A DNA stretch of 26,887 nucleotides from a virus. Every line of letters starts with the position of its first letter. Within the stretch, counting starts at the first letter, position 1. Of the stretch, positions 1-25,365 are shown one piece after another. The notes beneath the pieces are model-generated. The model saw only the letters and a list, made by a program, of their open reading frames with translations, searched no databases and had not been told where the DNA came from. The stretch lies in IMG/VR virus record IMGVR_UViG_3300043357_000133, positions 1 through 26,887 of that record, one strand, 5' to 3'. Both the position numbers and the translations under genes were made by a program.

Positions 1-963
1 CTACTGTTGCCCTGCAATAGTTCCTACAGTCGCTTTTCCTGGGCAAATGGCATTGAGCGCTTCTGCTTTGGCGGTTATCCGAATTCGAGAATAATACCGC
101 GACATTTTGATCGACTGGTGGCCCGCAATTGACATAATGGTTTCATCGGGCGCTCCCGATTCAAAAAGTTTCGTGATGATCTGGTTGCGAAAATTTCGCG
201 GCTGCAGCCACTCCAGGCCGGTCTTTTTTCTCATTGTCCTGAACGCCGACCGTATAAAGTATGGCGAGGCCGGCTTGGTCACGTCATAGCTGCTGCGCTT
301 CAGACGATATGGGAATATGTAGTGGTCAGGATGCCATGCTCCCAGACGTTTTGCCCGCTCCACAATCCTGCGCACTTGTTTCGTGGCAACAGCATTCAGA
401 GGCACCACGCGTGCGCGAAATTCATTCTTCACTTTAGTATCTGGAATATGGATTGTTGGCGGCTCGTGCTCCAGAAAGACATGTTTCATCTGCAAGTACC
501 GCAGCTCAATTCCCATGGCCGACGTATTATTTGTCAACGAGACCGCCCAATATGCAACGCTCCAGTCTGGATTGCCGGCCACCACGCGAAAGAATCTTTC
601 TTCTTCCTCCGCGGTCAGTACTTTCGGAGGAGTCCAATTGGGGAGCGGTAGCGGTTTATAGTGTTTCTCAACCAGGTCCCATAAATCGGCCGCCTTCAAA
701 ATCTGCGCCAGCGTATTCAACTCATGGTTCACGCAGGACGCTCCTGCTTCCATCCGCCTTTTCCGCTGATATTCCAGAAAATGGCCAATATGAATTTGCG
801 ACAGCAACACTCCCGCAAACATTTTCTTCAAGTTCCGGACATACCATTCATACATTTCGATCGTCCGGGGCTTTTTGCTGTGCATTTTCTTGATCTCCAG
901 CCAGTGCCGGGCTGCTTCCTCAAAAGGAAGGGTGCGAAACTGTAATGGCGTCATCACTCTCAT
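1..963 (-). CDS. Tyrosine recombinase / phage integrase with degenerate catalytic site
   Basis: A 320-residue protein of normal length for a phage integrase, which would recombine attP and attB. The N-terminal part (about residues 10-100) looks like a SAM-like core-binding domain and the rest like the catalytic domain. The C-terminal signature is clear: R256-N-F-R259-N, then G281-H282-Q-S and Y291 in the sequence MSRYYSRI, followed by the typical C-terminal helix. Two expected catalytic residues are missing. The position of the first arginine, in the segment NTSAMGIELRYL, is M150. The box-II histidine is R256, and the second histidine of that box is N260. Arg259, His282 and Tyr291 remain. It is the last gene of the leftward array and may mark the prophage end. 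ATG at 963 is used; ATG at 954 is an alternative. The family call is secure; activity is doubtful. Confidence 0.9.
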   Translation of the reverse strand: MRVMTPLQFRTLPFEEAARHWLEIKKMHSKKPRTIEMYEWYVRNLKKMFAGVLLSQIHIGHFLEYQRKRRMEAGASCVNHELNTLAQILKAADLWDLVEKHYKPLPLPNWTPPKVLTAEEEERFFRVVAGNPDWSVAYWAVSLTNNTSAMGIELRYLQMKHVFLEHEPPTIHIPDTKVKNEFRARVVPLNAVATKQVRRIVERAKRLGAWHPDHYIFPYRLKRSSYDVTKPASPYFIRSAFRTMRKKTGLEWLQPRNFRNQIITKLFESGAPDETIMSIAGHQSIKMSRYYSRIRITAKAEALNAICPGKATVGTIAGQQ

Positions 964-1570: not shown

Positions 1571-1622
1571 GCAGGCCTTCAGGCCTGCGTTAGCGCTGTA
1601 AAAAATTACTGGGCTTCAGCCC
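1571..1622. repeat. Two REP-like hairpins
   Basis: GCAGGCCTTCAGGCCTGC at 1571-1588 is a perfect 8-base stem with a 2-base loop. A second hairpin, GGGCTTCAGCCC, is at 1611-1622. The second overlaps the last codons of the neighbouring gene, so its C-terminal residues (GAEAQ) are encoded by the repeat. Close relatives occur at 21842-21891 and 25391-25402. The first hairpin could also act as a weak terminator for the 1606-2349 gene, but it lacks a clear T run. Confidence 0.55.
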
Positions 1623-2349
1623 CTGGAATCACCGGCTTCAATGCCGCAATCGCCGCCACAGGGTCCCGATCATCCGGCCGCTGAATCTCGCTCACCGGCT
1701 TCTTCCCCATCAGCCCGCGCACCGCGTTCAGCAGAGCCGGAAACTGCTCCAGCAATCCCACAACCGCCGATTGTTTTTCCTGCAACGTTGCTGATTTATC
1801 TTTTGCCACTTTGGCCACGGCATACGCGGCAAAGGCATCCACCGCGGCAATCTGCGCCTGGCGCGCTTTCTCCACGGTCTGTTGCGCTTCGCGCGTCTGC
1901 GGTAGGTAGAACACGTGCGGATCAAAGGCCGCATTTTGCGGATCGCCCGCGCAGGCGTGCCGGATATCGGCGTCCAAGTGGTTATAGCCGGCCACCGCGC
2001 AATCGATCAGCGCTTTGCTCGCGGCCAGCGATGCGTACGTTGTCTGGTCCCACGTACTCACGCATCCTGCCAGCAGCGCGCACGCAGGTATCGTCACGCA
2101 AAGCGCCAGCACGCTGGTAATCTTCGTCCAGTCAGTAATTCTTGTCGGCTGGTTTCCCGGCAATGGCGACTGCTTCAGATACAGCAGCACTGACTTCACG
2201 CCAATCACCAGCGCAGCCGCGCCAACTTTCGTCAATCCGGCTTTGGAAAAGTTAAAGCTTGCCGGATCCAGTTGCATGGTAGCCAGCGCGGTAATCATTG
2301 AGCTCAGCGCAAACACGCCCAGCCCCTTGAACCAGGTTGCAAGGTTCAT
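1606..2349 (-). CDS. Putative holin-like/lipoprotein fusion of the lysis cassette
   Basis: A 247-residue protein with two distinct parts. Residues 1-60 hold two hydrophobic stretches (about 9-26 and 43-57), as in a small holin. Residues 78-96 form a second export-like segment ending in a lipobox, LLAGC, with the cysteine at residue 96. After it comes a soluble helical region with many charged and alanine residues (about 100-220). Its place next to the endolysin suggests a lysis role: a holin joined to an outer-membrane spanin-like lipoprotein, or a lipoprotein whose own start is internal (GTG at residue 80). The ATG at 2349 has GAGGA about seven bases upstream. Its C-terminal codons overlap a REP-like hairpin. 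The function is inferred from topology and position only. Confidence 0.55.
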   Translation of the reverse strand: MNLATWFKGLGVFALSSMITALATMQLDPASFNFSKAGLTKVGAAALVIGVKSVLLYLKQSPLPGNQPTRITDWTKITSVLALCVTIPACALLAGCVSTWDQTTYASLAASKALIDCAVAGYNHLDADIRHACAGDPQNAAFDPHVFYLPQTREAQQTVEKARQAQIAAVDAFAAYAVAKVAKDKSATLQEKQSAVVGLLEQFPALLNAVRGLMGKKPVSEIQRPDDRDPVAAIAALKPVIPGAEAQ

Positions 2350-2598: not shown

Positions 2599-3108
2599 TT
2601 ACGCCTCCGCCCTTTTCAGCCATCCCGCCAAATTCACCGCCTGGGCCGGGTTGTTGGCAGCTATGTGGCGATAATGCGCCGCGCTGAACTGGCAGAGCAG
2701 CCCGTAAAAGGTTTGCGGATCAATGGCATTGATGGCCGCCAGAGTCTTCGGCCCGATCCTGCCGTCCTCGGCAAGCTGCTGGCCCTGGGAGTTCGCCGCG
2801 CGCTGGGCATAGACCGCCGCCTGCCGCACTCCCATGTTCACGCCCATATCAAAAAGTTTGTTGGCCACGTCCTGGCTTTCTACCTCGGCCAGGCGCATGC
2901 TGTCCCAGTATTCGCGTTCCTCAATCTCTTCTGCTTCAGCCAGCGCGTCTTCCGCAGGCCGGGTAAAAAACTCTTCCGGCAGATCAGGATGGAACTTTTC
3001 TGCAATGCCAAAGCGCGTACGCCCTCCGGCATCTACGGTCACTCTGCCAGAACGGGTTGAATCTTCATGTTGCAGCGTGAATAAGAATGCCGGCTTGAAA
3101 TCGGCCAT
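2599..3108 (-). CDS. Endolysin, GH108 N-acetylmuramidase with peptidoglycan-binding domain
   Basis: A 169-residue muramidase that cleaves peptidoglycan glycan strands at lysis. The N-terminal half has the GH108 pattern: a likely catalytic Glu at residue 15 (LQHEDS), then DAGGRTRFGIAEKFHP at 26-41 and NKLFDMGVNMG at 83-93. The C-terminal part (about 105-165) matches the PG_binding_3 domain, with DGRIGPKTLAAIN and FSAAHYRHIAANNP followed by GWLKR. Length is normal for the family. I chose ATG at 3108 because GGAGG lies at 3114-3118 with ideal spacing, and because a longer frame to 3210 would overlap the preceding gene. It sits downstream of the HNH gene and upstream of the holin/lipoprotein gene, so it belongs to the lysis cassette. 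It has no signal peptide, so it would need a holin to reach the wall. Confidence 0.9.
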   Translation of the reverse strand: MADFKPAFLFTLQHEDSTRSGRVTVDAGGRTRFGIAEKFHPDLPEEFFTRPAEDALAEAEEIEEREYWDSMRLAEVESQDVANKLFDMGVNMGVRQAAVYAQRAANSQGQQLAEDGRIGPKTLAAINAIDPQTFYGLLCQFSAAHYRHIAANNPAQAVNLAGWLKRAEA

Positions 3109-3145
3109 GGATGCCTCCAAATTGAAATGTAGGTAGCAACCTTCA

Positions 3146-3703
3146 TCAAAGCTCGCCTTCAGGACTCGCAAAAACAATGGATTCCTGATTTGACCGGCCG
3201 ACAGCTTCACTTTCTTCTTCCATCACTTCCGGCCTTGGTACCGCCTCCACATGCCGCCACGTTCTTCCTTTCGCGATACGGGCGATCGTCGCGGCTGTCA
3301 CGCCGTATTCACGCGCCAGTTCGGTCATATACATGCGGCCTTCCGCCAGCAAAATTTTGATCCTGCTTACTTGTTCCGCTGATAGCTTGGAACTGCGAAT
3401 CTTTTCACCGACCGGGCTTCTGCCCTTTTGTCGCGTGTCGTGTGCATTGTCGCGAGGTGTTCCAAGGAATAAGTGATCTGGATTAACGCATGCCCGCACA
3501 TCACACTTGTGGCATACGACCAAACCTGGACCGATCTCACCACGAAATAACACCCATGCAACGCGATGCGCGAGTTGCTGTGTGCGGCCAAGGGTCACGA
3601 TCCCATATCCGTCCGCACGAACCATGCCCCGCCACAGCCAGCATCCGCTGGCCGGTTCAGGACACACCTTAGCTAGAAATCTTTCTCTTGGAGTAAGTTT
3701 CAT
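3146..3703 (-). CDS. HNH homing-type endonuclease with helix-turn-helix
   Basis: A 185-residue nuclease. The HNH_3 core is plain: AHRVAW (His46), then CHKCDVRACVNPDHLFLGT at residues 64-82, with paired cysteines that probably bind zinc and the catalytic His65, Asn74 and His77. A DNA-binding HTH follows at about 107-150 (LSAEQVSRIKILLAEG and YGVTAATIARIAKGRTW). This order is typical of free-standing phage homing endonucleases. ATG at 3703 is preferred; a TTG at 3733 would add ten residues and has no ribosome binding site. It lies between the small membrane protein and the endolysin, a common site for such insertions. The family is secure; the target site is unknown. Confidence 0.88.
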   Translation of the reverse strand: MKLTPRERFLAKVCPEPASGCWLWRGMVRADGYGIVTLGRTQQLAHRVAWVLFRGEIGPGLVVCHKCDVRACVNPDHLFLGTPRDNAHDTRQKGRSPVGEKIRSSKLSAEQVSRIKILLAEGRMYMTELAREYGVTAATIARIAKGRTWRHVEAVPRPEVMEEESEAVGRSNQESIVFASPEGEL

Positions 3704-3767
3704 TGGATACCTGAAAATTTGGTTGATGGGCAAGAATATTAATTAGCGTCGAACCATCTTTAGTCTG

Positions 3768-3797
3768 ATTCATGTTCATTCGCGTGAATTCGCGGCT
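3768..3797. repeat. Dispersed 30-base repeat, inverted partner at 7752-7780
   Basis: The segment beginning ATTCATGTTCATTCGCG and ending AATTCGCGGCT matches the reverse complement of 7752-7780. Two substitutions and one indel separate the copies. The two copies flank the methyltransferase/tail-fibre block. Related TTCATTCGCG strings are widespread in bacterial intergenic DNA, so this is a repeat family rather than an attachment site. Confidence 0.6.
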
Positions 3798-3817
3798 CAA
3801 ATTGGGACTATTATCGA

Positions 3818-3982
3818 TTACACGCTTGCCGCGTGCTTTTCGTTCGCGCTGATTCCTTTGCGCTCGGCAAAGTCTGTCCACATGAGCTTGTGCTGGTACA
3901 CGATGATCGACATTTTGCGATAAATCCCCAGCAGCACCAGCAAGTTCGCTGCAGTAACAAAATCGGTAAAGTGAATTTGCAT
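3818..3982 (-). CDS. Small membrane protein, lysis-cassette candidate
   Basis: A 54-residue protein with one hydrophobic segment (about residues 5-21, VTAANLLVLLGIY) followed by a basic, aromatic C-terminal part (QHKLMWTDFAERKGI). The ATG at 3982 has an AAGG ribosome binding site six bases upstream (3989-3992), which favours it over an ATG at 4000. It is the first of the leftward lysis-region genes. Topology and place fit an accessory holin or antiholin, but no specific motif shows this. Confidence 0.55.
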   Translation of the reverse strand: MQIHFTDFVTAANLLVLLGIYRKMSIIVYQHKLMWTDFAERKGISANEKHAASV

Positions 3983-4069
3983 GGGTTCCCTTCTGATCAA
4001 AATGGTTCACTCAAAACAAAATTGGTCCGCAAACATAAAACCGGCGGCCCGCTCCGCTAAAATCCGTAT

Positions 4070-4843
4070 GTGCATCAGGCCGCATCTCACAAATATCGTT
4101 TGCTGTTAAAGCTCCTTTTCAGCCGTCCATCCGAGTTTTTCGACCGGGTTAAGACCGCGGCTGAAGGAATGGCATCACCACCGCAATCTGCTGCCGGACT
4201 TAAGGGGCTTGATCTTGCGGCGATGCTCGATCTGAGCTCGAAATATCTGGGCATGGACCTGAGCGGCTTCCTGCATGATCCGGACGCCGTGGCTATACGA
4301 GAGCACATCGCATCCGAGCGGGCGCTTTTGAACCGGCCTCCATCAGCCTCCATGCACGATGCCGATGCAGAACTACCGGATTTTTGCTACGTCATCTGCC
4401 GCGCCCTGCGGCCGCGCGTTGTGGTGGAAACCGGAGTTGGCAGCGGCGTGACCACTTCTTTTATTCTGCAGGCGCTGGCCGCCAACGGCGAAGGGCATCT
4501 CTGGAGCATTGACCTCCCGCCCATTGGCGCGGAACAGTTTGCCGGCAGCTTTGTGCCACAGCCGCTGCACAGCCGCTGGACTCTGCTCCGTGGCCGCTCC
4601 CGGGATCTGCTGCCGCGCCTCCTGAGCGATCTTCCTGCTCCTGACGTGTTCCTGCATGACAGCCTGCACACCACAAGAAACATGACTTTCGAATTCCAAG
4701 CTGCGTGGCAAAAGATGAACCCCGGCGGCGTTCTTCTCTCCGACGACATCCATATGAGCAAAGCTTTTGCCCGCTTCATCAGCAATAAAAGGGTCGGCCT
4801 GTCGCTGGCGGGCAATCGATTCGGAGTGGCATTCAAGCGCTAA
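4070..4843 (+). CDS. Class I SAM-dependent methyltransferase (Methyltransf_24-like)
   Basis: A 257-residue methyltransferase on the strand opposite the phage late genes, so probably an accessory (moron) gene. The SAM-binding loop is clear at about residues 122-133 (VVVETGVGSGVT), with the acidic motif WSIDLPP about 25 residues on. Later come FLHDSLHTTRNM and a typical MNPGGVLLSDDIHMS strand near 220-234. The fold is that of small-molecule or sugar methyltransferases often found in cell-surface polysaccharide clusters. The listed start is GTG at 4070 with no visible ribosome binding site, so the true start could be further in. It lies next to a second methyltransferase and the receptor-binding tail genes. 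Modification of the host surface after lysogeny is a reasonable but unproven role. Confidence 0.8.
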   Translation: MHQAASHKYRLLLKLLFSRPSEFFDRVKTAAEGMASPPQSAAGLKGLDLAAMLDLSSKYLGMDLSGFLHDPDAVAIREHIASERALLNRPPSASMHDADAELPDFCYVICRALRPRVVVETGVGSGVTTSFILQALAANGEGHLWSIDLPPIGAEQFAGSFVPQPLHSRWTLLRGRSRDLLPRLLSDLPAPDVFLHDSLHTTRNMTFEFQAAWQKMNPGGVLLSDDIHMSKAFARFISNKRVGLSLAGNRFGVAFKR

Positions 4844-5035
4844 ACCAGGCGTCCGCGCTATAGCTTACCTGTGGTGTTTATTAGCCTGAAGACAAGAGTT
4901 CACGTATTGAATCGAGTACCTCGGTGTAAAATATTTTCACCATTAACACCAGCAGCTCAACCTTCTCCTGTGTTTTCAGCGTACGGCACGTGAACGATTT
5001 AGGAGTTGGTGCCATCGTTTAGAGGAAAGCGCAAC

Positions 5036-5805
5036 ATGATTCCGTGGTATGTAAAGATTCCCGCCAAAGTTGTCCTATCTCGGCTGCCGGTTAGCGGCAA
5101 GGCTTGGCAAAAACTTCATCTGTTCCGAGCCGGTGGCATGGACAGTGATCAGTATGCCCGCTCAATCTTTGATAAGCATTTTGATGCAACTGGGTTCTCT
5201 GATCTCAGCAACAAAACGGTCCTTGAAATTGGCCCGGGCAATGGCCTGTTGACAGGTAAATATGCTAATGAGCTAGGCGCGGCAAAAACATGGCTGATCG
5301 ATTCAGAACCTATTGCCGACGTTGAGCCATTCCCTAACACCGTTTACTTAACTGAAGGACTTAAGTCTTTTCGTGAAGTTCCCGACGCTTCTGTCGATTT
5401 TCTTTTCTCGAATGCAGTGCTTGAGCATATTCGGTTGAAAGAATTTGTGCCCCTGGTAATGGAAATGAAGCGTGTTCTCAAACCAGAAGGAATCGCCTCA
5501 CATCAAATCGATTTCCGCGATCATCTCCAATATGCGTTGAATAACCTTAGGTTCTCAGAACGCGTGTGGGAAAGCGAATTCATGGCTAAATCGGTTTTTA
5601 TACAAACCGGATTCCCTGGGCCAAAATGCAAGCGCTGCTTGAAGAACATTTTGTGGTGTCCATTAAGCACCGTAACTTCTGGCCGTCTATACCCACAGCA
5701 CAAAATAAAATGTCACCGCCATTCAGGACAATGCCTGAACAGGATCTAATGACGCTGGATTGTCACGCTGTCCTGACGGACAAATTCCGCAGCCTGCGCG
5801 TTTGA
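5036..5805 (+). pseudogene. Class I SAM methyltransferase with apparent one-base frameshift
   Basis: The N-terminal part is an intact methyltransferase: VLEIGPGNGLLTGKYA is the SAM loop, and NAVLEHI and MKRVLKPEGIASHQIDF are later motifs. Near 5594-5600, in a run of five Ts, the reading frame breaks. The original frame runs on to a stop at 5747-5749 through unrelated sequence. The frame one base back (from 5596) is open to TGA at 5805 and reads like the family's normal end (FYTNRIPWAKMQALLEEHF, then NFWP and MPEQDLMTLD). So one base seems to be missing, by mutation or by sequencing error. ATG at 5036 is preferred, with GAGGAAA upstream. Base composition looks more AT-rich than the phage genes, suggesting separate acquisition. 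It converges with the tail-fibre gene. Confidence 0.75.
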
Positions 5806-5837: not shown

Positions 5838-7727
5838 TCAATTTCCGATCACCCAGTAGTAAAACGCATAGTTGACTCCAGCCACGCATGTTCCGTTGAG
5901 TCCGAAAAGTGCGGTTGTAGTGGTCGTGCCAAAAGTATTCGCCGGCACTGCAGGAGCAAATCCATCGCCTCTTGCTGCTAAAGCCACGGGTGCCGCCGGA
6001 AAGGCACCGTCGTGAAACGTCAGCCGAAACCCAGGATTGGCAGTTTGTCCCGTGCCTGAACAGGCGATCACAACGGAGCCAGCCGTATCATTGCCGGTGA
6101 CAGCCACAACGCTCGCTGTAGTTCCCCAACTTCCCAGGCCAAGGCCAGTAATGGTCCAATCGCCTATCGCGACAGATGTGCCTTGGTTCGCTCTTAATCG
6201 ATTCAGCGGCGTAGTTCCGCCCAACGTCTTATTGGTCAGCGTGTCAACCGTGGTTCTTGCAACCAGCGTATCGGTAACGGTTGCGGGTAAAGTGAGAATG
6301 CCAGCGCCAGCAACTGAAGACGCCTGAACAAACGTAGTACCTGAGGTAGCACCGCTCCATCTGATGCCCTGTGGGCTATTTAAAAACAATGTGCCGCCGT
6401 TGCCAAATTGCATTGAACTACCAGCATTGTTCGTGAAGAGTATTCCGCCTGCCGTGTCATTTGTGATGCTTGCCGGAAGTGTTTGCGATGTGGTTTGTAG
6501 CGTAAGGCCGCCGGCAGTGGTAATGGTTCCGGTAGTATCGGCAACAAGCGCTTTGTTGGCAGTGCCCAGAAATACACTGCCTGAGCCATTGCCCTGCACA
6601 AAGGTATTCAGATAAGGCGAGGAATTTGAAATAAAGAAATGACTGACACCGAGGTTGTCCGAAATATTGAACCCGGTGGTCGGGGAAACTTGTTTGATCG
6701 TCGCAACCCCAAGCGTATTCGCCGCGCCCAGATTCACGTTGCCCAGCGTAGAAGTCCCTGCCACTGATAGCGTGCCTGGAATAATCGATCCGCCACTGCT
6801 TTGCATCGGCCCGGAAGATACCGCATTCGATCCATCAAACCAGAACTCCTGCGTACTGCAGGCGTTCGCCGTGCTCACGATGGTCCCCATGTTCAAAACA
6901 TTGGCCGGAGGAACAAAGGTGCGGCCGCCGGTCGCGTCCTGGCAGATTTCAAAGCTGATCGGCTCGCCCGCCACGGCATTGCTCAGCGTTGAGCTGGTGA
7001 CATTCCCCGTCAGCGTCAATTTGAAGCTGGCCGCCGTGGACGCGTCGAATGTTGGCGTGGCTGAGAAGGTGACCGTGGTAAGCGATCCCAGGCGTACATC
7101 CGTGCGTGAGGTCCCGGCATTGTCGGAGCAAACCATCCCCGCCAGGCAGTTGAAAGCCGTGCGCTGCGTAAGCCCGACTCCAGCATTGAAAATCTGTTGC
7201 AGGATGCTGGAAGGGATATTGGATCCCGTGACCGTCCCCGTGGCCGCCACGTTTCCGCTAACGGCCAGGTTTCCGGAAACGCTGTTGCCGCTGAGTGGCG
7301 CAAAGCTCCCCAGATTTACCGGCGCATAATTATCAAAGTTGAACGTGGCTCCGGTGAATGAAACTCCTGTGTACCTGAGCACTTCCTGCCCGGTGCTGGA
7401 ATCCTTTACCGTGATGCGATAGTAGATTCCCGAAGGCAGAGTGGCCGCCGGGTTTGGTACAGTGAAAGTTGGGGTAACCGCGCCCGCCGCAACGGGCGAG
7501 CAGTAGCCGCGCTTGAGCGCCTGTCCGCCGCCGCCGATGGAAACCGAAATAGGATTGTCACTCTGATCAGTAATCAAAAAGCAGAGCTGGCCGGCAGCAA
7601 GCTTTGTGCCGTTGATGTCCGTGATGTTGGACGCTGAAACTGTGGTCAGGTTTTGCGCGTGGGCATCAATCGAAAACCCTGCCGCAAAGGCCGCAATAAT
7701 CGCAAAGACAAAAATAAATTTCTTCAT
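5838..7727 (-). CDS. Tail fibre / receptor-binding protein with N-terminal signal peptide
   Basis: A 629-residue fibre-like protein at the distal end of the tail operon. It is rich in Thr, Ser, Gly and Asn and poor in charged residues, with repetitive beta-structured modules (SGNSVSGNLAVSGNVAATG, LTLTGNVTSSTL, DTLTNKTLGG) common in phage fibres. A compact C-terminal domain ends in YAFYYWVIGN. Unusually, it begins with a Sec-type signal peptide: MKKFIFVFAIIAAFAAGF then AHA|Q, with cleavage likely after residue 24. ATG at 7727 has TAGGAG five bases upstream, so this start is well supported. It follows the gpJ-like hub across a 234-base gap. It could be a structural fibre carrying an export signal, or an exported conversion protein derived from a fibre. 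Confidence 0.8.
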   Translation of the reverse strand: MKKFIFVFAIIAAFAAGFSIDAHAQNLTTVSASNITDINGTKLAAGQLCFLITDQSDNPISVSIGGGGQALKRGYCSPVAAGAVTPTFTVPNPAATLPSGIYYRITVKDSSTGQEVLRYTGVSFTGATFNFDNYAPVNLGSFAPLSGNSVSGNLAVSGNVAATGTVTGSNIPSSILQQIFNAGVGLTQRTAFNCLAGMVCSDNAGTSRTDVRLGSLTTVTFSATPTFDASTAASFKLTLTGNVTSSTLSNAVAGEPISFEICQDATGGRTFVPPANVLNMGTIVSTANACSTQEFWFDGSNAVSSGPMQSSGGSIIPGTLSVAGTSTLGNVNLGAANTLGVATIKQVSPTTGFNISDNLGVSHFFISNSSPYLNTFVQGNGSGSVFLGTANKALVADTTGTITTAGGLTLQTTSQTLPASITNDTAGGILFTNNAGSSMQFGNGGTLFLNSPQGIRWSGATSGTTFVQASSVAGAGILTLPATVTDTLVARTTVDTLTNKTLGGTTPLNRLRANQGTSVAIGDWTITGLGLGSWGTTASVVAVTGNDTAGSVVIACSGTGQTANPGFRLTFHDGAFPAAPVALAARGDGFAPAVPANTFGTTTTTALFGLNGTCVAGVNYAFYYWVIGN

Positions 7728-7751
7728 GGAGTCTCCTAGAGTCAAAAAGCA

Positions 7752-7780
7752 AGCCGCGAATTTCGCGAATGAACACGAAT
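7752..7780. repeat. Dispersed repeat, inverted partner of 3768-3797
   Basis: The stretch beginning AGCCGCGAATTTCGCGAATG is the reverse-complement relative of 3768-3797. It lies just upstream of the tail-fibre start, beyond its ribosome binding site. Confidence 0.6.
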
Positions 7781-7888
7781 CAATTCGCACTTTTCGGCCT
7801 GATTCGTGGCTAAAGTTGATGTGTTTGCGACAGGCCGCCGGATAGTCACAAGAATGACCGGCGAAGAAACTTAAGATCTGTTGCGATT

Positions 7889-7910
7889 GAGACGTAGCAT
7901 GCTACGTCTC
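7889..7910. repeat. 22-base perfect palindrome (REP-like)
   Basis: GAGACGTAGCA is followed directly by its exact reverse complement, giving a 22-base palindrome with no loop. It lies in the gap between the hub gene and the tail fibre. Sequences of the form GTAGCATGCTAC flanked by GAGAC are frequent in acidobacterial intergenic DNA (general knowledge). No T run follows, so it is not an ordinary terminator. Confidence 0.7.
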
Positions 7911-7961
7911 TACGCTGAAAAGGTTGGCTAAAGGCCAGCGGCTAGGAGCTAGCGGCTCGCC

Positions 7962-10900
7962 CTACATCTGGGGCAGCTTGCGATTGCCTGAGCCTGATCC
8001 GCCGGAACCGGAATCGCCCAGGCCGCCAGTGGTGCCGCCCGTTCCGCTGGAATTCACGGTTGCCACCAGGCCCACGCGCATCTGCCCGCGATACACGGCT
8101 TGAACATAATTGTTGTAGTTTGCCCAGGCCCGATGCGTAACAGCGTTGAAGTCGTAACTGATCCAGTAATTCGTGGTAACTTGCGGGCTGGCGCCCGTGT
8201 CATCGACAGTGGTAATGGTCTGGGCCGGGATACTGCGCACGCCGCCCTGGTCTTTCATTTTCCAGGCATTGTAAGAAGTTCCCACGCCGCCCGGACCGTA
8301 GGCCCGTATGTTGACTGCAGTTCCGCTGACAAAAACCGAATCCAGCGTGGCATTATTGGCCGGCGTTTCGTCATGATTACCGAAGATGCCATTGAAGGCA
8401 AAGCTGTAAGGAGTTGCGTTGGCCAGCGACTGCTCCATTAATCCCATGCGGTTGAAGCTGGTGAACTTGAAATAGATAGTGGTGCCCACCAGCGTCGGGT
8501 CGGCTTCCCAGACAAAAACTCCATTGTCCAGCCGAAGGAAAACAGAGCCAGCGTTGTGCGTTGCGACGGACGACCCGAAGACTCCGCGCCGCAGCCGCGC
8601 CGCCACTGCCGCTGTCCCGCCCGATGTGTATGCGCCGCTGCCGGTACTGCTGTTCAGCGTGAAATTATTGGCGTCGACAACGGTGATGACCCACGTTCCG
8701 TTTGCCGCGGTGTTGCCGCCGACGCCGGCAATCACCACGGTCTCGCCGGTGTTGAGGCCATGATTCGCCACCGTGATCTTAATCGGGCTCGCGTTGCTGG
8801 CCGTAGTAATGGCCATGGGAGAACCGTGAGCGCCCAGGTCATAACGATAAGCGCCCGTAAGCGTTGCGTCTTCGTAACTGATGAGCTCGCCATCGACATA
8901 ACAGAGCGTGCGGAAATTGTCACAGTCAGCCTGCGTGCCGGAGTTCAGAATGCCCGTCGATTGCGTTACATCCAGCGCAAGCGTGTGCGTGGTATCAGGA
9001 TCGGACGAAGAAACCAGTTGCGCGGTGAGCACGCCCATGCGCGACGGCCCATACATCTTGCCGATCTGCACGTAGTTGCTGTTGTCCGGTGAGAGCCAGA
9101 CGGAAGCGCCGCCCCAGTCCTGATTGACGGCCACACCACCTGAAGTGTAGGTGCCATTGCCGATGGATCCGTCGAGAGTGAAATTGTCAGGGTCAACCTG
9201 CGTTATGGTCCATGTGCCATTTGCCGCCGTGTTGCCGCCAACGCCGGCGATGGTAACTTTCTGTCCGCTCTTGAATTTGTGCCCTGTAGCAGTGATTTTG
9301 ATAGGTGTAGGGGGCGCTGGGGTCGTTGCGCTCGTAATTGCAACTGTTGGGCCGCAGACTCCAAGCCAGACTTCGTAGTTTCCGGTCAGGCTCAGCCGGT
9401 CATTAGCCTCAAAAATAATCGGCGTGCTTACCGCGCCGGGATCTGAATTGGCTTGCGTCACAAATCCCGCGCCTGCCTGATGCGGGTAGAGCGTTGGCGC
9501 CGCCGTTCCCCAGGGAAAGTCTTCACAGTCCACTTCCAGCTTGCCGGAATCATCTTCCCGCATGGCGGTGATCCGCACCGGTTTTTTGTTGTATCCCAAT
9601 TCCGGAATAGTGAGTGTGACCAGATCCATGGGTTCAAGCAGGTTGAATTGCCAGCCCAGAGAAAACGTGTACGTTGCCCGGATTTCCACTGAACGCTTGC
9701 GCAGCAGATTGGCTGCAAACTTGGCTACAGTGGTGGTGGTGATGGAATGCGCGTGCACGGGTGACGCCTTACGCAAACCGTAAAGCGCGATCATGGCATC
9801 GTCTTTGTCTTCCGCAACGTCTGGGTTGTAGTCGTTCGCGCGATTGGCAAATTCAATCGAGACAGAATTCATCACGTCCGCAACGGATGGCCGCTTGATA
9901 ACTACCGGCGTGAGAAGGTCACTGGTCGTGAGGTCATAGATGGGCGACGTATTGGGAATGAATGTTGCCCCGTTTCCCACGTTCGTCGTGTCGCCATAAG
10001 GGACGACCTTCAAAACACCTTCACTCCACACCGCCGCAGCATTCGTGATGTCCAGAATTTCCTGTATCCAGTCACTTGCGGCTTTTTGTGCGTCCAGCAC
10101 CGGAGAAAGAAACAACCCGTTGGCCGTGCAGAAATTTCGGTACTGCGTGAGATCGCCGGGAGTGACCACACCGGCCAGTCCGTAAAATTGATTCGCCAGA
10201 ATGTCAGCGATAATCACTGAAGGCTCAGCGTCGGCAATTCCGGCACCAAAGGTAATGGCGCTCAGCACTTCAAAGCTTAAATTCGGCAAAGTGCCGCTTT
10301 CGCCCAAATCCATGGCGGACGCCGCGACATAAGCTATCCCGTTATATCCAAGGTCCTGTCCGGGATGCTGCGAGGTCAGATAACTCCAAGGCGTCTGCGG
10401 ACGCGAGCCGAGAAACAGCGTGAGGCTTAACTTCTGTTGTGGCTGGCCGTTCGAATTGGAATCAGGGACCGAATAGACGTAGCTGATCGTGACAACCTTG
10501 CCGGCATCGGCAGCAGAGAAATTAAAGACCGCGCCGGATTGCGTGAACTGCCCGGCTCCCGGCGAGCTTCCAACCTGCACCATGGCGGTCTGCTGCGTTC
10601 CTGAATGAAGTACGGAACCATCAGAACCAAAATCAGTTTGCGAGAAACTGAAAGCGTCCGCTCTGCCTATGCCCCGGTGCGAATGAAAAACCCCGCCGCC
10701 CGGAGGTGTAACGGTAATTCCGCCGCCGCCGCCCGGAACCGTGAAAGGCACGGTAGCGGAAATCATGGTCAGCTTGCCCTTCGTGTCCCAGATGTTATGG
10801 AAATTCAGGATGGGTCCCTGGCACAACGCCATGGCAACTGCGGTTTGATACGTATATGTGGTATTTGAAATTGCGTTGCCGCCCCCGGAGCCCAGCCCCT

Positions 10901-11102
10901 TGCCGCCAACCTTGGTGGTGGACGTGTGCGGAATGGAAGCGAAATCACCAGCCCAAATCAGCCGTGCTGCAATCCTATTCTGTCCGTAGAGGATCGGAAT
11001 GACCTGTCCATACGAACTGGTTTGCACGCGCAGTGCGGAAAGCAGATTCGGTTTTGCCGCGAGACCATTTTTTCCACCGCCTTTTCCGCCCATCAAAGCC
11101 AT
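7962..11102 (-). CDS. gpJ-like tail tip / baseplate hub protein (Phage-tail_3 type)
   Basis: A 1046-residue protein forming the distal tail hub that contacts the cell and anchors the fibre. The N-terminus is glycine-rich, and about 20-100 resembles the start of lambda gpJ and gene-transfer-agent megatron proteins (YGQVIPILYGQNRIAARLIW). Residues about 395-530 carry the Phage-tail_3 signature (PIYDLTTSDLLTPVVIKRPS; SLGWQFNLLEPMDLVTLTIP). Two copies of a roughly 70-residue module, at 588-658 and 765-832, share AGVGGNTAANGTW and FTL and resemble FCCH-type domains seen in phage tail proteins. The C-terminal tail is a Gly/Ser linker ending KLPQM. ATG at 11102 has GAGG eight bases upstream. It follows the NlpC/P60 peptidase, as in lambda and Rhodobacter GTA tail clusters. 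It lacks a recognisable GTA TIM-barrel domain. Confidence 0.87.
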   Translation of the reverse strand: MALMGGKGGGKNGLAAKPNLLSALRVQTSSYGQVIPILYGQNRIAARLIWAGDFASIPHTSTTKVGGKGLGSGGGNAISNTTYTYQTAVAMALCQGPILNFHNIWDTKGKLTMISATVPFTVPGGGGGITVTPPGGGVFHSHRGIGRADAFSFSQTDFGSDGSVLHSGTQQTAMVQVGSSPGAGQFTQSGAVFNFSAADAGKVVTISYVYSVPDSNSNGQPQQKLSLTLFLGSRPQTPWSYLTSQHPGQDLGYNGIAYVAASAMDLGESGTLPNLSFEVLSAITFGAGIADAEPSVIIADILANQFYGLAGVVTPGDLTQYRNFCTANGLFLSPVLDAQKAASDWIQEILDITNAAAVWSEGVLKVVPYGDTTNVGNGATFIPNTSPIYDLTTSDLLTPVVIKRPSVADVMNSVSIEFANRANDYNPDVAEDKDDAMIALYGLRKASPVHAHSITTTTVAKFAANLLRKRSVEIRATYTFSLGWQFNLLEPMDLVTLTIPELGYNKKPVRITAMREDDSGKLEVDCEDFPWGTAAPTLYPHQAGAGFVTQANSDPGAVSTPIIFEANDRLSLTGNYEVWLGVCGPTVAITSATTPAPPTPIKITATGHKFKSGQKVTIAGVGGNTAANGTWTITQVDPDNFTLDGSIGNGTYTSGGVAVNQDWGGASVWLSPDNSNYVQIGKMYGPSRMGVLTAQLVSSSDPDTTHTLALDVTQSTGILNSGTQADCDNFRTLCYVDGELISYEDATLTGAYRYDLGAHGSPMAITTASNASPIKITVANHGLNTGETVVIAGVGGNTAANGTWVITVVDANNFTLNSSTGSGAYTSGGTAAVAARLRRGVFGSSVATHNAGSVFLRLDNGVFVWEADPTLVGTTIYFKFTSFNRMGLMEQSLANATPYSFAFNGIFGNHDETPANNATLDSVFVSGTAVNIRAYGPGGVGTSYNAWKMKDQGGVRSIPAQTITTVDDTGASPQVTTNYWISYDFNAVTHRAWANYNNYVQAVYRGQMRVGLVATVNSSGTGGTTGGLGDSGSGGSGSGNRKLPQM

Positions 11103-11641: not shown

Positions 11642-12517
11642 CTAAATAGCTGTTTCCGGAGCAGGCACGTAAGGAAAGCCCTCAAAGTTCACCAGATTGG
11701 AAAACTTATTCGTGCATGTGGCCTGTGTTTTGTCGCACCCCGGATACGCTGTGAACGTGTCGCCGGCATTAGGAACAAACGGAAGCGGAGAATTGAAGGT
11801 AAAGAAAGGACCGCCAGTGGAAGAATAAGTTTTTACCGCTTTGACTAGCCCTGTGTTCGCGCCTGACGTGAAAACAATTTGCCCGTTATCGTAATAGGTG
11901 TCCAATTTCAGCGAATTGGAAAGCAGCTTATTGACAGTGCTCCCGGCCTGTACCACGTTCGCCTCGGCAAAGCTGGCCTTGATCAACCCACAGCGAGCGT
12001 CAAAGAGAGTGTTTGTACAGCCGGGTTGCAGAATCACCGCCGGAAGCTGCATGCTCAGGTAAGCCGTGCCGGCGTTCACGGAAAGCTTCGCCGCGGAGCG
12101 CGTAAGTTCGTCCAGCGCGCCGATGAAACCGGAAAACCTCACCACTGTACCGATCTGGTTTGAAGCAGAATCCATAAACAAGCGGTCGATGCGGAAGCCC
12201 GCGCCGTCGAACAATCCCTGCCCGATCGCTTGCAGGATCGGCACGCCATTGATCACGTCGGTCAAGCTGGCCTCGATCGTTACCTCGAGCGTCGCCACGT
12301 CCATGCCAAGCTTTTCTTCAATAGCCGATCGCGCAATGTTGGGTGGGCCAGTCAGGAATGTGTTTCCCAGCACCGTCAGGTTCGTGTCCCAGCTTGTGTA
12401 GCGCAGCGCCGTGCCGTTCTTGAGAGTAATGGTGTAAAGGTCGGCCATGCGGATTTCTGTTGCGCTCTGGAGCCACGTCACCAGGTTGTTGCCGCCGATA
12501 TTTGTTGGTGTTTTCAT
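11642..12517 (-). CDS. Tail hub protein, DUF2163 / phage BR0599 family
   Basis: A 291-residue protein matching the family of RcGTA g13, which takes the place of lambda gpL. The N-terminal DUF2163 part is about residues 10-160 (LYTITLKNGTALRYTSWD). The C-terminal BR0599 part ends with YPGCDKTQATCTNKF and NLVNFEGFPYVP, a hallmark of the family. Four cysteines (167, 176, 261, 268) are placed as in tail-tip proteins that bind an iron-sulphur cluster; that binding is inferred here. The start is ATG at 12517, which has no strong ribosome binding site. It lies between DUF2460 and NlpC/P60 genes, the conserved order. Confidence 0.9.
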   Translation of the reverse strand: MKTPTNIGGNNLVTWLQSATEIRMADLYTITLKNGTALRYTSWDTNLTVLGNTFLTGPPNIARSAIEEKLGMDVATLEVTIEASLTDVINGVPILQAIGQGLFDGAGFRIDRLFMDSASNQIGTVVRFSGFIGALDELTRSAAKLSVNAGTAYLSMQLPAVILQPGCTNTLFDARCGLIKASFAEANVVQAGSTVNKLLSNSLKLDTYYDNGQIVFTSGANTGLVKAVKTYSSTGGPFFTFNSPLPFVPNAGDTFTAYPGCDKTQATCTNKFSNLVNFEGFPYVPAPETAI

Positions 12518-12650: not shown

Positions 12651-13331
12651 TTATTTGCGCACTGAAATCAACTGCACTTCCTTACATTCGTAAAGATTGA
12701 AATAGAAATTGCTGAACTCGATCCCCTCACGCGTTCCGCTCGAAGAACTGCCGCGCGAGGTTCCGGCGTCAAACCGCACGCGGTGCAGGAAAGTAAAGTC
12801 CGCCGTGATAGCGGCGCCTACCGCCGGTGCGGAAGTGAAACTTACAAGTCCCAGGGAAATGGTGTAATCCACTCCCTGCACCTGCAGTGTCGGCGTGCGT
12901 CCGCTCACATAAACCGTCGCCGTCTGGTTCGCCGGATTCTGGCACGCTTCCAGAAATCCGCCAAAGTTGCGCACAAGCTGAAAGTTCTTCGTCACTCCGT
13001 CGCCGGTTCCGATGGGCTGCCCGGTGAAAACGGAATCTTCCAGTCGTTGCGTCAGGTCGCTTTCATTGAGCAGGAAGTCGTCAAACTGGCCGCCGCGGGC
13101 CAGAAAGAAACCGACCAGCGTCTCCAGCGGCGTCTGTTCGTTTTCATCTCTCGATCGCGGATCGTTCAACAGATACTCATAGGCCAGGGTGAACTCCCAG
13201 ATGGGATTCTGAAAGTTCTGCACCCTCACCTCGCGGCCGGCAAGTGAGGATTGGATCTCCGTCGAGAACGTGGGGTTCTTCGTAATACTCCAGCCCAGTC
13301 CGCGGATTTTAGGAAAGAGAAGGTTGCTCAT
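12651..13331 (-). CDS. Distal tail protein, DUF2460 family
   Basis: A 226-residue protein of the DUF2460 family (RcGTA g12), which forms the ring between tail tube and hub. The family pattern is visible: an N-terminal FPKIRGLGWSITKNPTFST, a middle segment WEFTLAYEYLLND, FFLARGGQFDDFLL near 93-106, and IGTGDGVTKNFQLVR near 120-134. Its ATG overlaps the tape-measure stop codon as ATGA, with AAAGGAG upstream, so translation is coupled to the tape measure. Confidence 0.92.
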   Translation of the reverse strand: MSNLLFPKIRGLGWSITKNPTFSTEIQSSLAGREVRVQNFQNPIWEFTLAYEYLLNDPRSRDENEQTPLETLVGFFLARGGQFDDFLLNESDLTQRLEDSVFTGQPIGTGDGVTKNFQLVRNFGGFLEACQNPANQTATVYVSGRTPTLQVQGVDYTISLGLVSFTSAPAVGAAITADFTFLHRVRFDAGTSRGSSSSGTREGIEFSNFYFNLYECKEVQLISVRK

Positions 13332-15403
13332 CTGGCTCCTTTCCGCTTGAGCGCCCGCGTTACTTCATTGGCGATCATGTTGCTATGCCGGCGGATGTGT
13401 CCCTGGAATGACGCTGCATCCACGGCGCTGACGGAATGGTTTACGACAATCGTGATTCCTCCACCTCCGCTGTAGCCTGGGCCTTGCATGCTGGCTGGGA
13501 TCACTTTTTCGCCTTTGTGTAGATAGGCAAGGCCGTCCATGGGGACAAAATCGGTTCCAATCGCGAGAGAGGCTGCGCCCATTGCTATAGCGCCCATTCC
13601 TGAAGCCGTTGCTCCGGCTGCTGCTGCAACTGCCGGGGCCATGGACACATTTATCGGAAACGGTAGCGCCTGCATCGCCGAGGCGAACCCAGCAAGGGCA
13701 GCGATGCCAGAGGATGCAGCTGTTGCGCTGGTAATTTTCTTTTGGGTAAAGAGTTTGTCAATCAGCCATTCTTCAGCTTTTTTCTCCGCTTTCTGTGCAA
13801 CGTAATCGGCGAATGAGCCGATCAGTGAGTTGAACATCTTGGCGAAGCCCTGAGCTACGGTTTCCGTCCCTTGAATCATTCCAAGGATTTCTGTTTTGAA
13901 GGCATTGCCGATCTGTGAGAATGCTTGCCGGTACTGCTGCTCTTGCGCTTTCAGCCCGTCCGTGACGGCCTTGGCGCCAACCACCTCGCCTTGCGCCTTA
14001 ATTTTATTAATCTGGTTTTGAATTTCCTGTACTTTCTTGGGGTCCTTGTCCCAGAGCGCCTGGCGCTTCTGCTGATAGAAGATTTCCAGTTGGAGTTCAT
14101 CCTGCTTTGCTTTGGCGATCAGTGCGATTTCCTGCTGCTGCGTAATCTTGCCTTTTTCAAAGTCCTGGGTGATTAGCTGGATTTTCACTTCGCCGGCGAT
14201 CTTCGCGACTTCAATCTGGCCTTTGTAGCCTTCGTCCCAGGTTTGGAATTGCTCATTGGCGGCTTTTATGACAGCGTCATTTTCCGCTTTGATTGCGGCA
14301 AAATCCGCCGCCATCGTCTGCTTGCTAGCGCTTTCGTCAATTGCAATAATGGCTCTCGTGCTCGCATCGACCGTAGAGACCTTGTCGCTCTGCTCTTTCT
14401 TGAAAGCGGCGCTACTCTTCTGTGCTTCAGCAACTGCAATTTGGCGGCTGAGAGCGTTATTTTTTGCGACCTGAGCTGAGGCTGCACCATAACTTTCGGA
14501 GTAAATTGTGAGATCATTCAGTAGACGCTGCTCGTCACGGTATTGTTCATTCACTTGCTTCGTGGCATCTGCCAAGCTCAGCGCTTCTCGCACCTGGGTT
14601 TCGCCATTCGGTCCGCTCGCTACGCTCTCATCTCTTTTGGTCAGCGTGTCTATTCCGGCAGCCTTTTTGTCGGCAAGAGCTTTCTGCTGGTCGGCGATAT
14701 AGCGGCGAAACTCCGCCTGTTTTTTATCCAACGATGTTTTATAATCCGCAGCTTCCTTCTGGTGACCGAGAGCGGCAGCCGTGTTCATCTGCTGCGACAA
14801 GTCATCGATCGCGGTCTTAAATTCGTGCGCCTTGTCAATTACCTCATTTGAACCGTTATTGCCGTTCATCAAACGGTCCCAAAAGCCCTGTTTCTGTTTT
14901 TGCAGCAGTTCGTCCAGCTTATCGATGGCTTTCGTAAACTCGTCCACCAGATCGGCAGTTGCTTTTCTGCCCTCCTCCATTGCGATCTTGACCCCGTTAG
15001 TGGGAGGCCTCTTTTGCAAAATCGCAAGCTGGTCCTGCAACTTGAGGTTGTTCGTCTGGAGAGCAGTGGCATACTGGTTCACAGCCAGCGACTCGTTCAA
15101 GGTTTCAGCCTTGGTTTTTTCCAGCTCTTCCCTTTCCTTCTTTAGTTTCTCGGTTAAATCAAAGATCGCTATACCCAGAGTAATGACTGCCAGGGGCGCG
15201 AATGCCGCGTCCAACACGGGCCCTATTAGCTCGCTCGCTGCAAGCATTTTTGAAATCCCATCGGGTACCTTAAGCCCGATAAGATCGCCCAACATCTCAA
15301 CAGATTTGCTAACTCTATCCAGGTGCTCTTTGGCCGCGTCGGCGGCATCTTTGACTTCAGTGGCATCACCCGTTATTTTGATGGGAACTTCATTGTCAGC
15401 CAT
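13328..15403 (-). CDS. Tail tape measure protein
   Basis: A 691-residue protein that sets tail length and is ejected ahead of the DNA. By the usual ratio of about 0.15 nm per residue, a tail near 100 nm is expected (inference). A hydrophobic segment (LDAAFAPLAVITLGIAIFDL) near residue 70 is followed by about 400 residues of charged coiled coil. The C-terminal region is Ala/Gly-rich and ends in the family's motif GTDFVPMDGLAYLHKGEKVI. ATG at 15403 is chosen because GGAG lies upstream; the GTG at 15436 has no ribosome binding site. A fragment resembling its N-terminal coding region lies at 16110-16196, beyond an inserted plus-strand gene. Confidence 0.9.
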   Translation of the reverse strand: MADNEVPIKITGDATEVKDAADAAKEHLDRVSKSVEMLGDLIGLKVPDGISKMLAASELIGPVLDAAFAPLAVITLGIAIFDLTEKLKKEREELEKTKAETLNESLAVNQYATALQTNNLKLQDQLAILQKRPPTNGVKIAMEEGRKATADLVDEFTKAIDKLDELLQKQKQGFWDRLMNGNNGSNEVIDKAHEFKTAIDDLSQQMNTAAALGHQKEAADYKTSLDKKQAEFRRYIADQQKALADKKAAGIDTLTKRDESVASGPNGETQVREALSLADATKQVNEQYRDEQRLLNDLTIYSESYGAASAQVAKNNALSRQIAVAEAQKSSAAFKKEQSDKVSTVDASTRAIIAIDESASKQTMAADFAAIKAENDAVIKAANEQFQTWDEGYKGQIEVAKIAGEVKIQLITQDFEKGKITQQQEIALIAKAKQDELQLEIFYQQKRQALWDKDPKKVQEIQNQINKIKAQGEVVGAKAVTDGLKAQEQQYRQAFSQIGNAFKTEILGMIQGTETVAQGFAKMFNSLIGSFADYVAQKAEKKAEEWLIDKLFTQKKITSATAASSGIAALAGFASAMQALPFPINVSMAPAVAAAAGATASGMGAIAMGAASLAIGTDFVPMDGLAYLHKGEKVIPASMQGPGYSGGGGITIVVNHSVSAVDAASFQGHIRRHSNMIANEVTRALKRKGAR

Positions 15404-15563
15404 GGTGGTGACTCTCCGTGTTTCTTGATAAGGCACTTTAAAATCTAAAGAAAAGCCGCTTCTAGATCGCTCAGTATGCCGAAGAAATTAAAGCGACTCC
15501 GTTTAAGTTGAACGCCGGAAAACAATAGACCAACGCAATCGAACGCATATAGAATCTGACGCC

Positions 15564-16262: not shown

Positions 16263-16973
16263 CTACTCATCCAGTACCCAGCCGTCGCCGGATTTCTTCA
16301 ACATCTTCTTTCCAGGCCGCGGCGTGGTGCTTTGTCGTATATCCGTCAAATTAAAGGTCTCGTCATGCCGCATGAGCAGAGCTGGATTCCTCAAATTGTC
16401 ATTGAGCTGTGCTAACTCCTTCTGCGAAAGATTATCGATGAGCTTGACACCGGTGGGGGCCAGGACCCATTTCCAGGTAAACTCAACTTCAGACTTTTGA
16501 GTGGTAACCTCGTAGATACTTTTGATATCCACAAAGGATTTTGTCGCGACGGTATCCAACATAGTAAGAGACCGACACCCATCTTTCTCGTTATATTTGG
16601 CCTTCTTTAAATTCTCCAGCACCTGTGGCTTGGCATTTGCCAGCTCAACTTTCCAGAAATCAGGGCCATCCGGCGCAATGGTCACTAATCCAGCCTTTTG
16701 TGCAGCCATAAAGTCGATCTGCGCAGGAATCGGATCCTGTTTCCCGAATGCGGTGCATTTTCCAGTAACTCGGCCAATCGCATAAACAAGCTTGATCGAG
16801 TCCTTATTCATTGATAGATTCAGCGCGTCCGTTATCGCCTTCGTGTCCGTTTCATTCGAGAATCCTGCTGTGAAGATGAGAAGAATGACGAGGACCAAAC
16901 TCGGAACCCTGATTATGTTTGCTCCCGCACTCCGTTTAAGACCGGTTCGAATCCTGATGCCCGCCTGGCGCAT
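16263..16973 (-). CDS. Exported or membrane-anchored protein of unknown function
   Basis: A 236-residue protein. It begins with a long basic N-terminus and a hydrophobic segment at about residues 22-38 (RVPSLVLVILLIFTAGF), which is a signal peptide or anchor. The rest is soluble, with two cysteines (C73 and C133) that may pair outside the cytoplasm. No family is recognised. ATG at 16973 has AAAGGAGAG upstream with good spacing. It follows the tail chaperones on the late strand but ends in a terminator, and composition looks less GC-rich than the structural genes, so it is probably a moron. An effect on the host envelope is a guess. Confidence 0.65.
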   Translation of the reverse strand: MRQAGIRIRTGLKRSAGANIIRVPSLVLVILLIFTAGFSNETDTKAITDALNLSMNKDSIKLVYAIGRVTGKCTAFGKQDPIPAQIDFMAAQKAGLVTIAPDGPDFWKVELANAKPQVLENLKKAKYNEKDGCRSLTMLDTVATKSFVDIKSIYEVTTQKSEVEFTWKWVLAPTGVKLIDNLSQKELAQLNDNLRNPALLMRHDETFNLTDIRQSTTPRPGKKMLKKSGDGWVLDE

Positions 16974-24825: not shown

Positions 24826-25365
24826 TCAGTAGCCGACGATCACGCGGTCAGTACAAGTGCCGGCTACGGCGACTTGATTTTTCTCAAAGAATGAGACAGC
24901 CAGCTGCGGAAGGCGGACGGGCGCACCCAGAGTGCCACTGGTGACGGTGGGAGCAAGTTCAGTGGCCAGGTATGCCTGTTGAGCGCCGGATGTCATGTTG
25001 GTGGCGATGATGTAGCTGTTATAGAAGCTAAAATTCGGGCTCGACTGGCCCTGATCGTCTGCCGTGTAGACGTTCATAACCAGATCAAAGTTCTGGGTGC
25101 AGGAAGCGAAGACGGTCATTTTGGTGGCATCGCCAAGACGGATGATGCTGGTATTAGGCGTTGCGCCGCCGACGGAAGCCGGCAGTGCGACACCGCTATG
25201 GGCCAAGTCGGTAGGCGAGTAAACCAAGTGAGGCATAGGGCGCGGCAGCACAGGCTTGCCGTTTTTGTCCATCTCAGGGAACTGGCTGGAAGTTTGAGAG
25301 AAGACGAAAAGGGTGGTGACGCAAAGCAGGGCGAGAAGGGCGACGTACAAAGTTTTTTTGTTCAC
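24826..25365 (-). CDS. Secreted beta-rich protein of unknown function
   Basis: A 179-residue protein with a clear signal peptide: MNKKTLYVALLALLCVTTLF then VFSQ, with cleavage near residue 24. The mature part is beta-rich (TKMTVFASCTQNFDLVMNVY; SFYNSYIIATNMTSGAQQAY), with two cysteines (C109 and C172 region) that may form a disulphide. The start is GTG 25365 with AGGAG seven bases upstream. It lies upstream of the portal on the late strand, an odd place for an exported protein. It could be a moron, or a decoration-like protein that gained an export signal. Confidence 0.65.
   Translation of the reverse strand: MNKKTLYVALLALLCVTTLFVFSQTSSQFPEMDKNGKPVLPRPMPHLVYSPTDLAHSGVALPASVGGATPNTSIIRLGDATKMTVFASCTQNFDLVMNVYTADDQGQSSPNFSFYNSYIIATNMTSGAQQAYLATELAPTVTSGTLGAPVRLPQLAVSFFEKNQVAVAGTCTDRVIVGY

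Follow-up and report, generated by a model that had tools for sequence, protein, structure and literature searches.

The window, by which we mean the whole stretch of DNA analysed here, is a 26.9-kb virus contig that, judged from its genes, belongs to a temperate siphovirus-like phage. Read from right to left, the minus strand carries genes for portal, head, connector, tape measure, DUF2460 protein, hub, tail tip, fibre, GH108 endolysin and integrase, in that order. The tip and hub proteins belong to the Phage-tail_3/Gp84/DUF2460 type. Our subject is the fibre gene, which the sequence-only reading had placed correctly on the minus strand as an ORF of 629 aa. The features of the locus are as follows.

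1–963, minus strand: integrase, by domain match, indicating a temperate phage
2599–3210, minus strand: GH108 endolysin, downstream of the fibre, by domain matches
5838–7727, minus strand: tail-fibre gene, 629-aa precursor, from the ORF and relatives
5841–6179, minus strand: C-terminal domain, residues 517–629, with weak resemblance in structure search to R-pyocin foot, tailspike and H-type lectin domains
6093–6716, minus strand: shaft, residues 338–545, 55% identical to the leaderless L022 fibre by alignment
6825–7070, minus strand: module, residues 220–301, common to the isolated phages Macromonas BK-30P and Arthrobacter Jinkies, from the phage-record search
7302–7655, minus strand: mature N-domain, residues 25–142, whose fold is predicted to be tail-docking; all 21 aligned relatives keep Cys49 and Cys76 (model, alignment)
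7656–7727, minus strand: predicted Sec leader, residues 1–24 (MKK, hydrophobic core, AHA), its kind but not its letters kept in relatives
7728–7961, minus strand: 234 nt separating the tail-tip and fibre genes
7733–7737, minus strand: AGGAG ribosome site, 5 nt ahead of the ATG
7962–11102, minus strand: tail-tip/J-like protein, 1046 aa, upstream neighbour of the fibre in this phage group (Phage-tail_3, Rcc01698_C, phrog_1101)
11642–12517, minus strand: baseplate hub-like protein (Gp84_N/BR0599)
12651–13331, minus strand: DUF2460 tail protein, by domain match
13328–15436, minus strand: tape measure, by profile match

The phage is a virus of soil Acidobacteria. Its closest cellular relative found, and the sole one from the genome-contig scan, is an Acidobacteriaceae metagenome-assembled genome (MAG). 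The mature N-domain of the fibre occurs in 22/300 genomes drawn from the family of that MAG, in 40/397 drawn from its order and in 6/396 drawn across the phylum, all six of the last also being among the order-draw matches. A host gene caught in a virus contig is ruled out by the tail-gene neighbours and by the same order in prophages L104, L105, L106, L108 and L123; a plasmid search with the fibre returned no match. Several other genes of the window may be recorded here. At 24826–25365 (minus strand), upstream of the portal, another protein starts as a leadered one would, with MNKKTLYVALLALLCVTTLFVFS and then Q; the leader rule described below is passed by 3/3 of its scored homologues, itself counted. 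The protein at 16263–16973 (minus strand) has a hydrophobic N-terminal stretch and neither a Pfam nor a clear PHROG match, and its L037 relative carries a lipobox-like LLFAGC. Between endolysin and integrase, 1606–2349 (minus strand) encodes hydrophobic segments and an LLAGC motif and is by eye a lysis protein candidate. Downstream of the fibre, on the plus strand, are two further genes, at 4070–4843 (methyltransferase-like by eye) and at 5006–5749 (a methyltransferase by Pfam).

The fibre protein begins with MKKFIFVFAIIAAFAAGFSIDAHA followed by QNLTTV, that is, two lysines, an uncharged hydrophobic core and AHA ahead of Q. As read from its letters, MKKFIFVFAIIAAFAAGFSIDAHA is a Sec/signal-peptidase-I leader, with the positive n-region, core and AxA-type site of such leaders and no lipobox; the residue at +1, Gln25, is invariant in 21 aligned relatives. 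A lipoprotein or Tat substrate is ruled out, since there is neither a Cys at +1 nor a twin Arg. Leaders of relatives differ in most letters (for example, MKKLLLFSVFLCVLCGEGFC and MKKLITVFAFVCLAIGFAMDARA) but keep the charge and the core, and a small residue precedes their invariant Gln-Asn. The leaders of L126 (MKKLLQLFAFVCLCIAPLMA) and L011 (MKKLLTVFAFVCLGLGAHA) are strikingly alike, with distant domains behind them; the leader may travel as a module.

How widely the leader is shared was assessed with a hand-written rule (score of 11 or more, all starts tried) applied to relatives with a nearly complete mature N-domain, made non-redundant over the first 100 residues. By this rule 62/77 relatives have a leader, or 64/77 when L085 and L125, read by eye, are included; the remainder comprise 11 leaderless proteins, one fusion (L077) and one frameshift (L025). 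Among homologues of 16 other window genes, 6/203 pass, and most of these come from two control genes that themselves look exported or membrane-bound (p24826, 3/3 pass; p16263, 2/5 pass). Without those two, 1/195 homologues of fourteen window genes, nearly all virion genes, pass. The leader is thus not a chance feature, given its frequency among N-domain relatives and its near absence from homologues of other phage genes. The signal peptide with an AHA-Q site that had been read from the sequence is therefore real, and so is the start from which it was read: the ATG at 7727 is preceded by AGGAG, and relatives start at the same MKK or LKK, although a GTG at 7790, 21 codons upstream, is a possible alternative.

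Surveys of viral contigs gave the same picture. Among the 24 relatives found by searching with the whole fibre, 22 are leadered, L022 is leaderless in the same place and L025 is frameshifted. The L025 frameshift (4950–5010) falls precisely at the junction of leader and mature protein, and its neighbours are HTH-like by eye rather than tail genes. Because one of the six search words lay inside the leader, the survey was redone from the tail-tip gene. In 18 of 28 such loci the next gene downstream is a leadered fibre, nine contigs stop at the tip gene or within 750 nt of it, and L048 has its leadered fibre further off. A leadered fibre is thus common to many relatives of the window phage, and both in the window and at those 18 loci it adjoins the tail-tip gene, encoded among tail genes. 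One contig (L051, 15814–17922 and 17919 onwards; L019) has two leadered fibres, and a third gene, whose start is leader-like too, overlaps the first of them.

Behind the leader, the protein is built of fibre modules, as had been claimed. Searched by sequence, the fibre has no significant match in Pfam, PHROGs or the PDB, and phage records gave just two matches, both partial and both at residues 220–301. The N-domain is modelled as a beta domain (pLDDT 81). Its best structural match is the tail fibre of cyanophage A-1(L) (PDB 8KEC), residues 1–105, with Z 10.1 and an rmsd of 2.2 Å over 95 residues, followed by a Bxb1 tail-tip protein chain (Z 7.1). Foldseek E-values against the PDB are weak; against predicted viral proteins the best is 6e-4, with minor tail and tail fibre proteins among the further matches. 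The predicted fold of the mature N-domain is accordingly that of a baseplate-docking tail-fibre domain. Mean column identity is 80% in this domain (13 rows) versus 41% in the whole fibre (21 rows). The shaft is at low confidence in the monomer model. The C-terminus varies widely among relatives; its lectin- and pyocin-foot-like folds score Z of about 6–7 with a Foldseek E of 0.009 at best, and the likeness to tailspike, pyocin foot and H-type lectin may reflect a mere common arrangement. Other members of the family carry a GDSL esterase (leadered L126, under the Pfam cut-off; leadered L113; leaderless L109) or a beta-helix (leadered L115).

Leadered and leaderless forms of the fibre occupy the same slots. 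Between tape measure and hub, L109, L111 and L112 are leaderless and L116, L117, L126, L163 and L180 leadered; downstream of the cTIP tail-tip gene, which the fibre does not always adjoin, L120 and L121 are leaderless and L165, L166, L167, L175 and L179 leadered; after the L118-type tip gene (L118tip), L118, L185 and L186 are leaderless and L184 is leadered; and after a double-HTH, excisionase-like gene, L110 is leaderless and L114, L170, L172, L176, L181 and L183 are leadered. The leaders of L175 and L184 were read by eye. In the tape measure/hub slot the leadered fibre replaces the leaderless one and never stands beside it, and in none of the surveyed N-domain loci are the two forms neighbours. 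Genome G141 does contain both, leaderless L111 on one contig and leadered L114 on another. The leader is an add-on ahead of an intact domain: over that domain leadered L126 and leaderless L112 share 54% identity, and both occupy the tape measure/hub slot. On the domain tree the leader state changes a minimum of four times, three of them on well-supported branches, without gain being separable from loss. The leaderless L022 fibre lies behind a tail-tip gene of the window type (47% identity over 430 residues, the longest aligned piece), and its own N-terminus aligns weakly with the N-domain. By eye, a Hint/intein-like stretch forms the end of the L022 tail-tip protein, at about 3740–4150.

The sequence-only reading had named leaderless relatives in the same position as evidence against its proposal. 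Such relatives do exist (L022, and the leaderless fibres of the four slots above), but they do not refute export because the leader varies together with paired cysteines. The number of cysteines in the N-domain is even in 63/64 leadered versus 4/11 leaderless proteins (Fisher p 1.3e-6), and leaderless N-domains often have a single Cys. After clustering at 70% the counts are 33/34 versus 3/8 (p 4e-4) and at 50% they are 24/25 versus 1/3 (p 0.02), with p rising to 0.24 at 40%. Of the 19 distinct Cys patterns among leadered domains, 18 are even, and in these domains alignment columns 25 and 56, 107 and 154, 170 and 181, and 57 and 79 are mostly paired; in leaderless domains the Cys of column 56 or 154 is without its partner. 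A phylogeny-aware test of leader against cysteines finds three independent pairs on the tree (p 0.5), such that kinship could account for the association. Over whole mature proteins, Cys parity is nearly alike (even in 48/59 leadered and 6/9 leaderless), and the median density is 1.5 per 100 residues in leadered versus 0.76 in leaderless proteins. Folding of the leadered form in an oxidising compartment, with disulfides, would be expected to leave even cysteine numbers.

The spacing of tip and fibre genes bears on when the fibre is made. In 18 loci of the window type, counting the window itself, the tip stop and the fibre start are 18–24 nt apart in five (L013, L029, L034, L037 and L041), 41–58 nt in three, 113–241 nt in seven including the window, and at least 598 nt in three. 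For L030 and L031 the computed fibre start lies 15 nt ahead of a likely TTG; these two loci have an extra gene, Fic/Doc-like by eye, between tip and fibre. No sigma-70-like site was seen in the window gap, although acidobacterial promoters may differ. The gap does contain a 20-base perfect palindrome at 7890–7909; the idea that this is a common repeat is unsupported, as among 190 loci it occurs solely in L001, the window's own copy. From this arrangement, the fibre is likely co-expressed late with the tail genes in the window-type group. This does not hold in general, since leadered fibres also lie behind an excisionase/HTH-like gene instead of tail genes (six loci) or upstream of the portal (L107).

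Tailed virions are, by the textbook account, assembled wholly in the cytoplasm. The sequence-only reading was thus right to call the export of a fibre unexpected, virus particles being built inside the cell. Nonetheless, we consider it very probable that this fibre is exported. What it does after export is less certain. Our preferred but tentative explanation is that a true tail fibre here takes a detour through Sec and the periplasm, is disulfide-bonded there and is mounted on the tail at lysis. The fibre would be made together with the tail genes, as gene order and the short tip gaps of five relatives suggest; it would be exported and cut after AHA, in keeping with the leader and its cleavage pattern; it would fold in the periplasm with disulfides impossible for cytoplasmic versions, as the cysteine pairing points to; and, having kept its predicted docking N-domain, it would be taken up by virions once holin and endolysin open the envelope. 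Gaining or losing the leader would then decide whether one and the same part is assembled in the cytoplasm or in the periplasm. We favour a virion fibre because the protein retains a docking fold, one that is strongly conserved, with the leader merely toggling on a like-placed protein. Counted against mounting are the weakness of the cysteine test once relatedness is considered, the near-equal Cys parity over whole mature proteins, the excisionase/HTH slots and L107, the weak Foldseek E-values against the PDB, and the failure to find an earlier case of a tailed phage docking a fibre that had been exported. Open-licence literature on exported tail fibres, Acidobacteria prophages and exported phage proteins yielded no recognised Sec-exported tailed-phage fibre; in the available portions of PMC3556154, PMC3765740, PMC3338817 and PMC11447400, the term is used in methods, references and other contexts.

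It is possible, if doubtful, that the fibre no longer joins the virion and is instead an exported receptor mask or decoy that occupies the host receptor from the periplasm or after lysis, keeping siblings from re-infecting or progeny from being lost on debris. The weak lectin-like C-terminal fold, the tandem leadered fibres of some phages (L104, L105 and L123) and the leadered fibres in excisionase/HTH-adjacent slots would fit such a role, as would the precedent of T5 Llp, a periplasmic protein encoded beside the receptor-binding protein gene that jams FhuA, according to the part of PMC9586334 available. However, a mask has no need for a tail-docking domain, yet this is the fibre's most conserved part; no surveyed N-domain locus has a leadered and a leaderless fibre next to each other; a Sec leader by itself is insufficient for crossing the outer membrane; and the HTH slot also holds a leaderless fibre (L110). 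Both roles, mask or decoy and fibre added at lysis, had been put forward in the sequence-only reading. Because the predicted docking fold is kept and both forms occupy the same slots, we rank a fibre added at lysis above a mask or decoy.

An unlikely alternative use of an exported fibre is lysogenic conversion, in which the prophage would supply its host with a surface adhesin. This draws on the layout of the Bdellovibrio MAT proteins and on the position of lambda Lom, a signal-peptide protein made in lysogens whose gene is flanked by those for tip and fibre, per the accessible portion of PMC12309495. Against it, no outer-membrane anchor is seen, and the 18–24-nt gaps together with the want of a promoter-like site in the window suggest late expression. 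Known tailed-phage fibres are assembled in the cytoplasm, which counts for a leader that goes unused, the fibre joining the virion with an uncut hydrophobic N-terminus. We regard this as very improbable, given that charge, core and cleavage pattern persist in leaders of differing sequence, that cysteines are paired, and that the leader is absent from sister fibres of the same slot. A chance hydrophobic start or a wrongly chosen start codon, for which the upstream GTG might speak, is already contradicted by the ribosome site at the ATG, the relatives' common start and the leader counts in relatives and controls, and we reject it as scarcely credible.

Extending the preferred reading of a fibre mounted at lysis to the wider group, we propose with a little more reserve that Acidobacteria phages practise two-compartment assembly, in which fibres would be exported, disulfide-bonded, stored in the periplasm and docked only when lysis breaches the inner membrane, the slot toggling with leader and cysteine pairs. 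A fibre that combines a docking domain with paired cysteines and an export leader would imply one of two things: the particle is partly finished beyond the inner membrane, or phages have repeatedly turned fibres into secreted proteins. Sister phages with and without the leader offer a natural experiment.

Several known systems resemble parts of this arrangement. T5 Llp is likewise an exported protein encoded beside a receptor-binding protein gene (available part of PMC9586334), but it is a small lipoprotein, whereas the window fibre has Gln at +1 and no T5 Llp/Cor-type lipobox. Lambda Lom shares export and a place beside the tail-tip gene (accessible portion of PMC12309495), but Lom is an outer-membrane beta-barrel and no fibre; the window fibre matched no Pfam family, and its model has a beta N-domain, a shaft and a C-terminal domain but no barrel. 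The tail fibres of A-1(L), a cyanobacterial myophage, are anchored to the baseplate by their N-terminal domains, as described in the available text of PMC10966104, and the likeness of the window fibre to them lies in the predicted N-domain fold, at 15% sequence identity. The matched chain, which from its length and residue range we infer to be the short fibre gp33, has its domain beginning at residue 1 and thus no leader, unlike the window fibre. A parallel in layout alone is with the Bdellovibrio MAT proteins, in which, according to the available part of PMC10769870, a signal peptide and a beta-rich domain of ~130 aa precede a phage-fibre-like body and varied tips. MAT proteins are bacterium-encoded and used in predation, whereas the window fibre comes from a phage genome and so offers a phage-encoded counterpart of these exported fibre adhesins.
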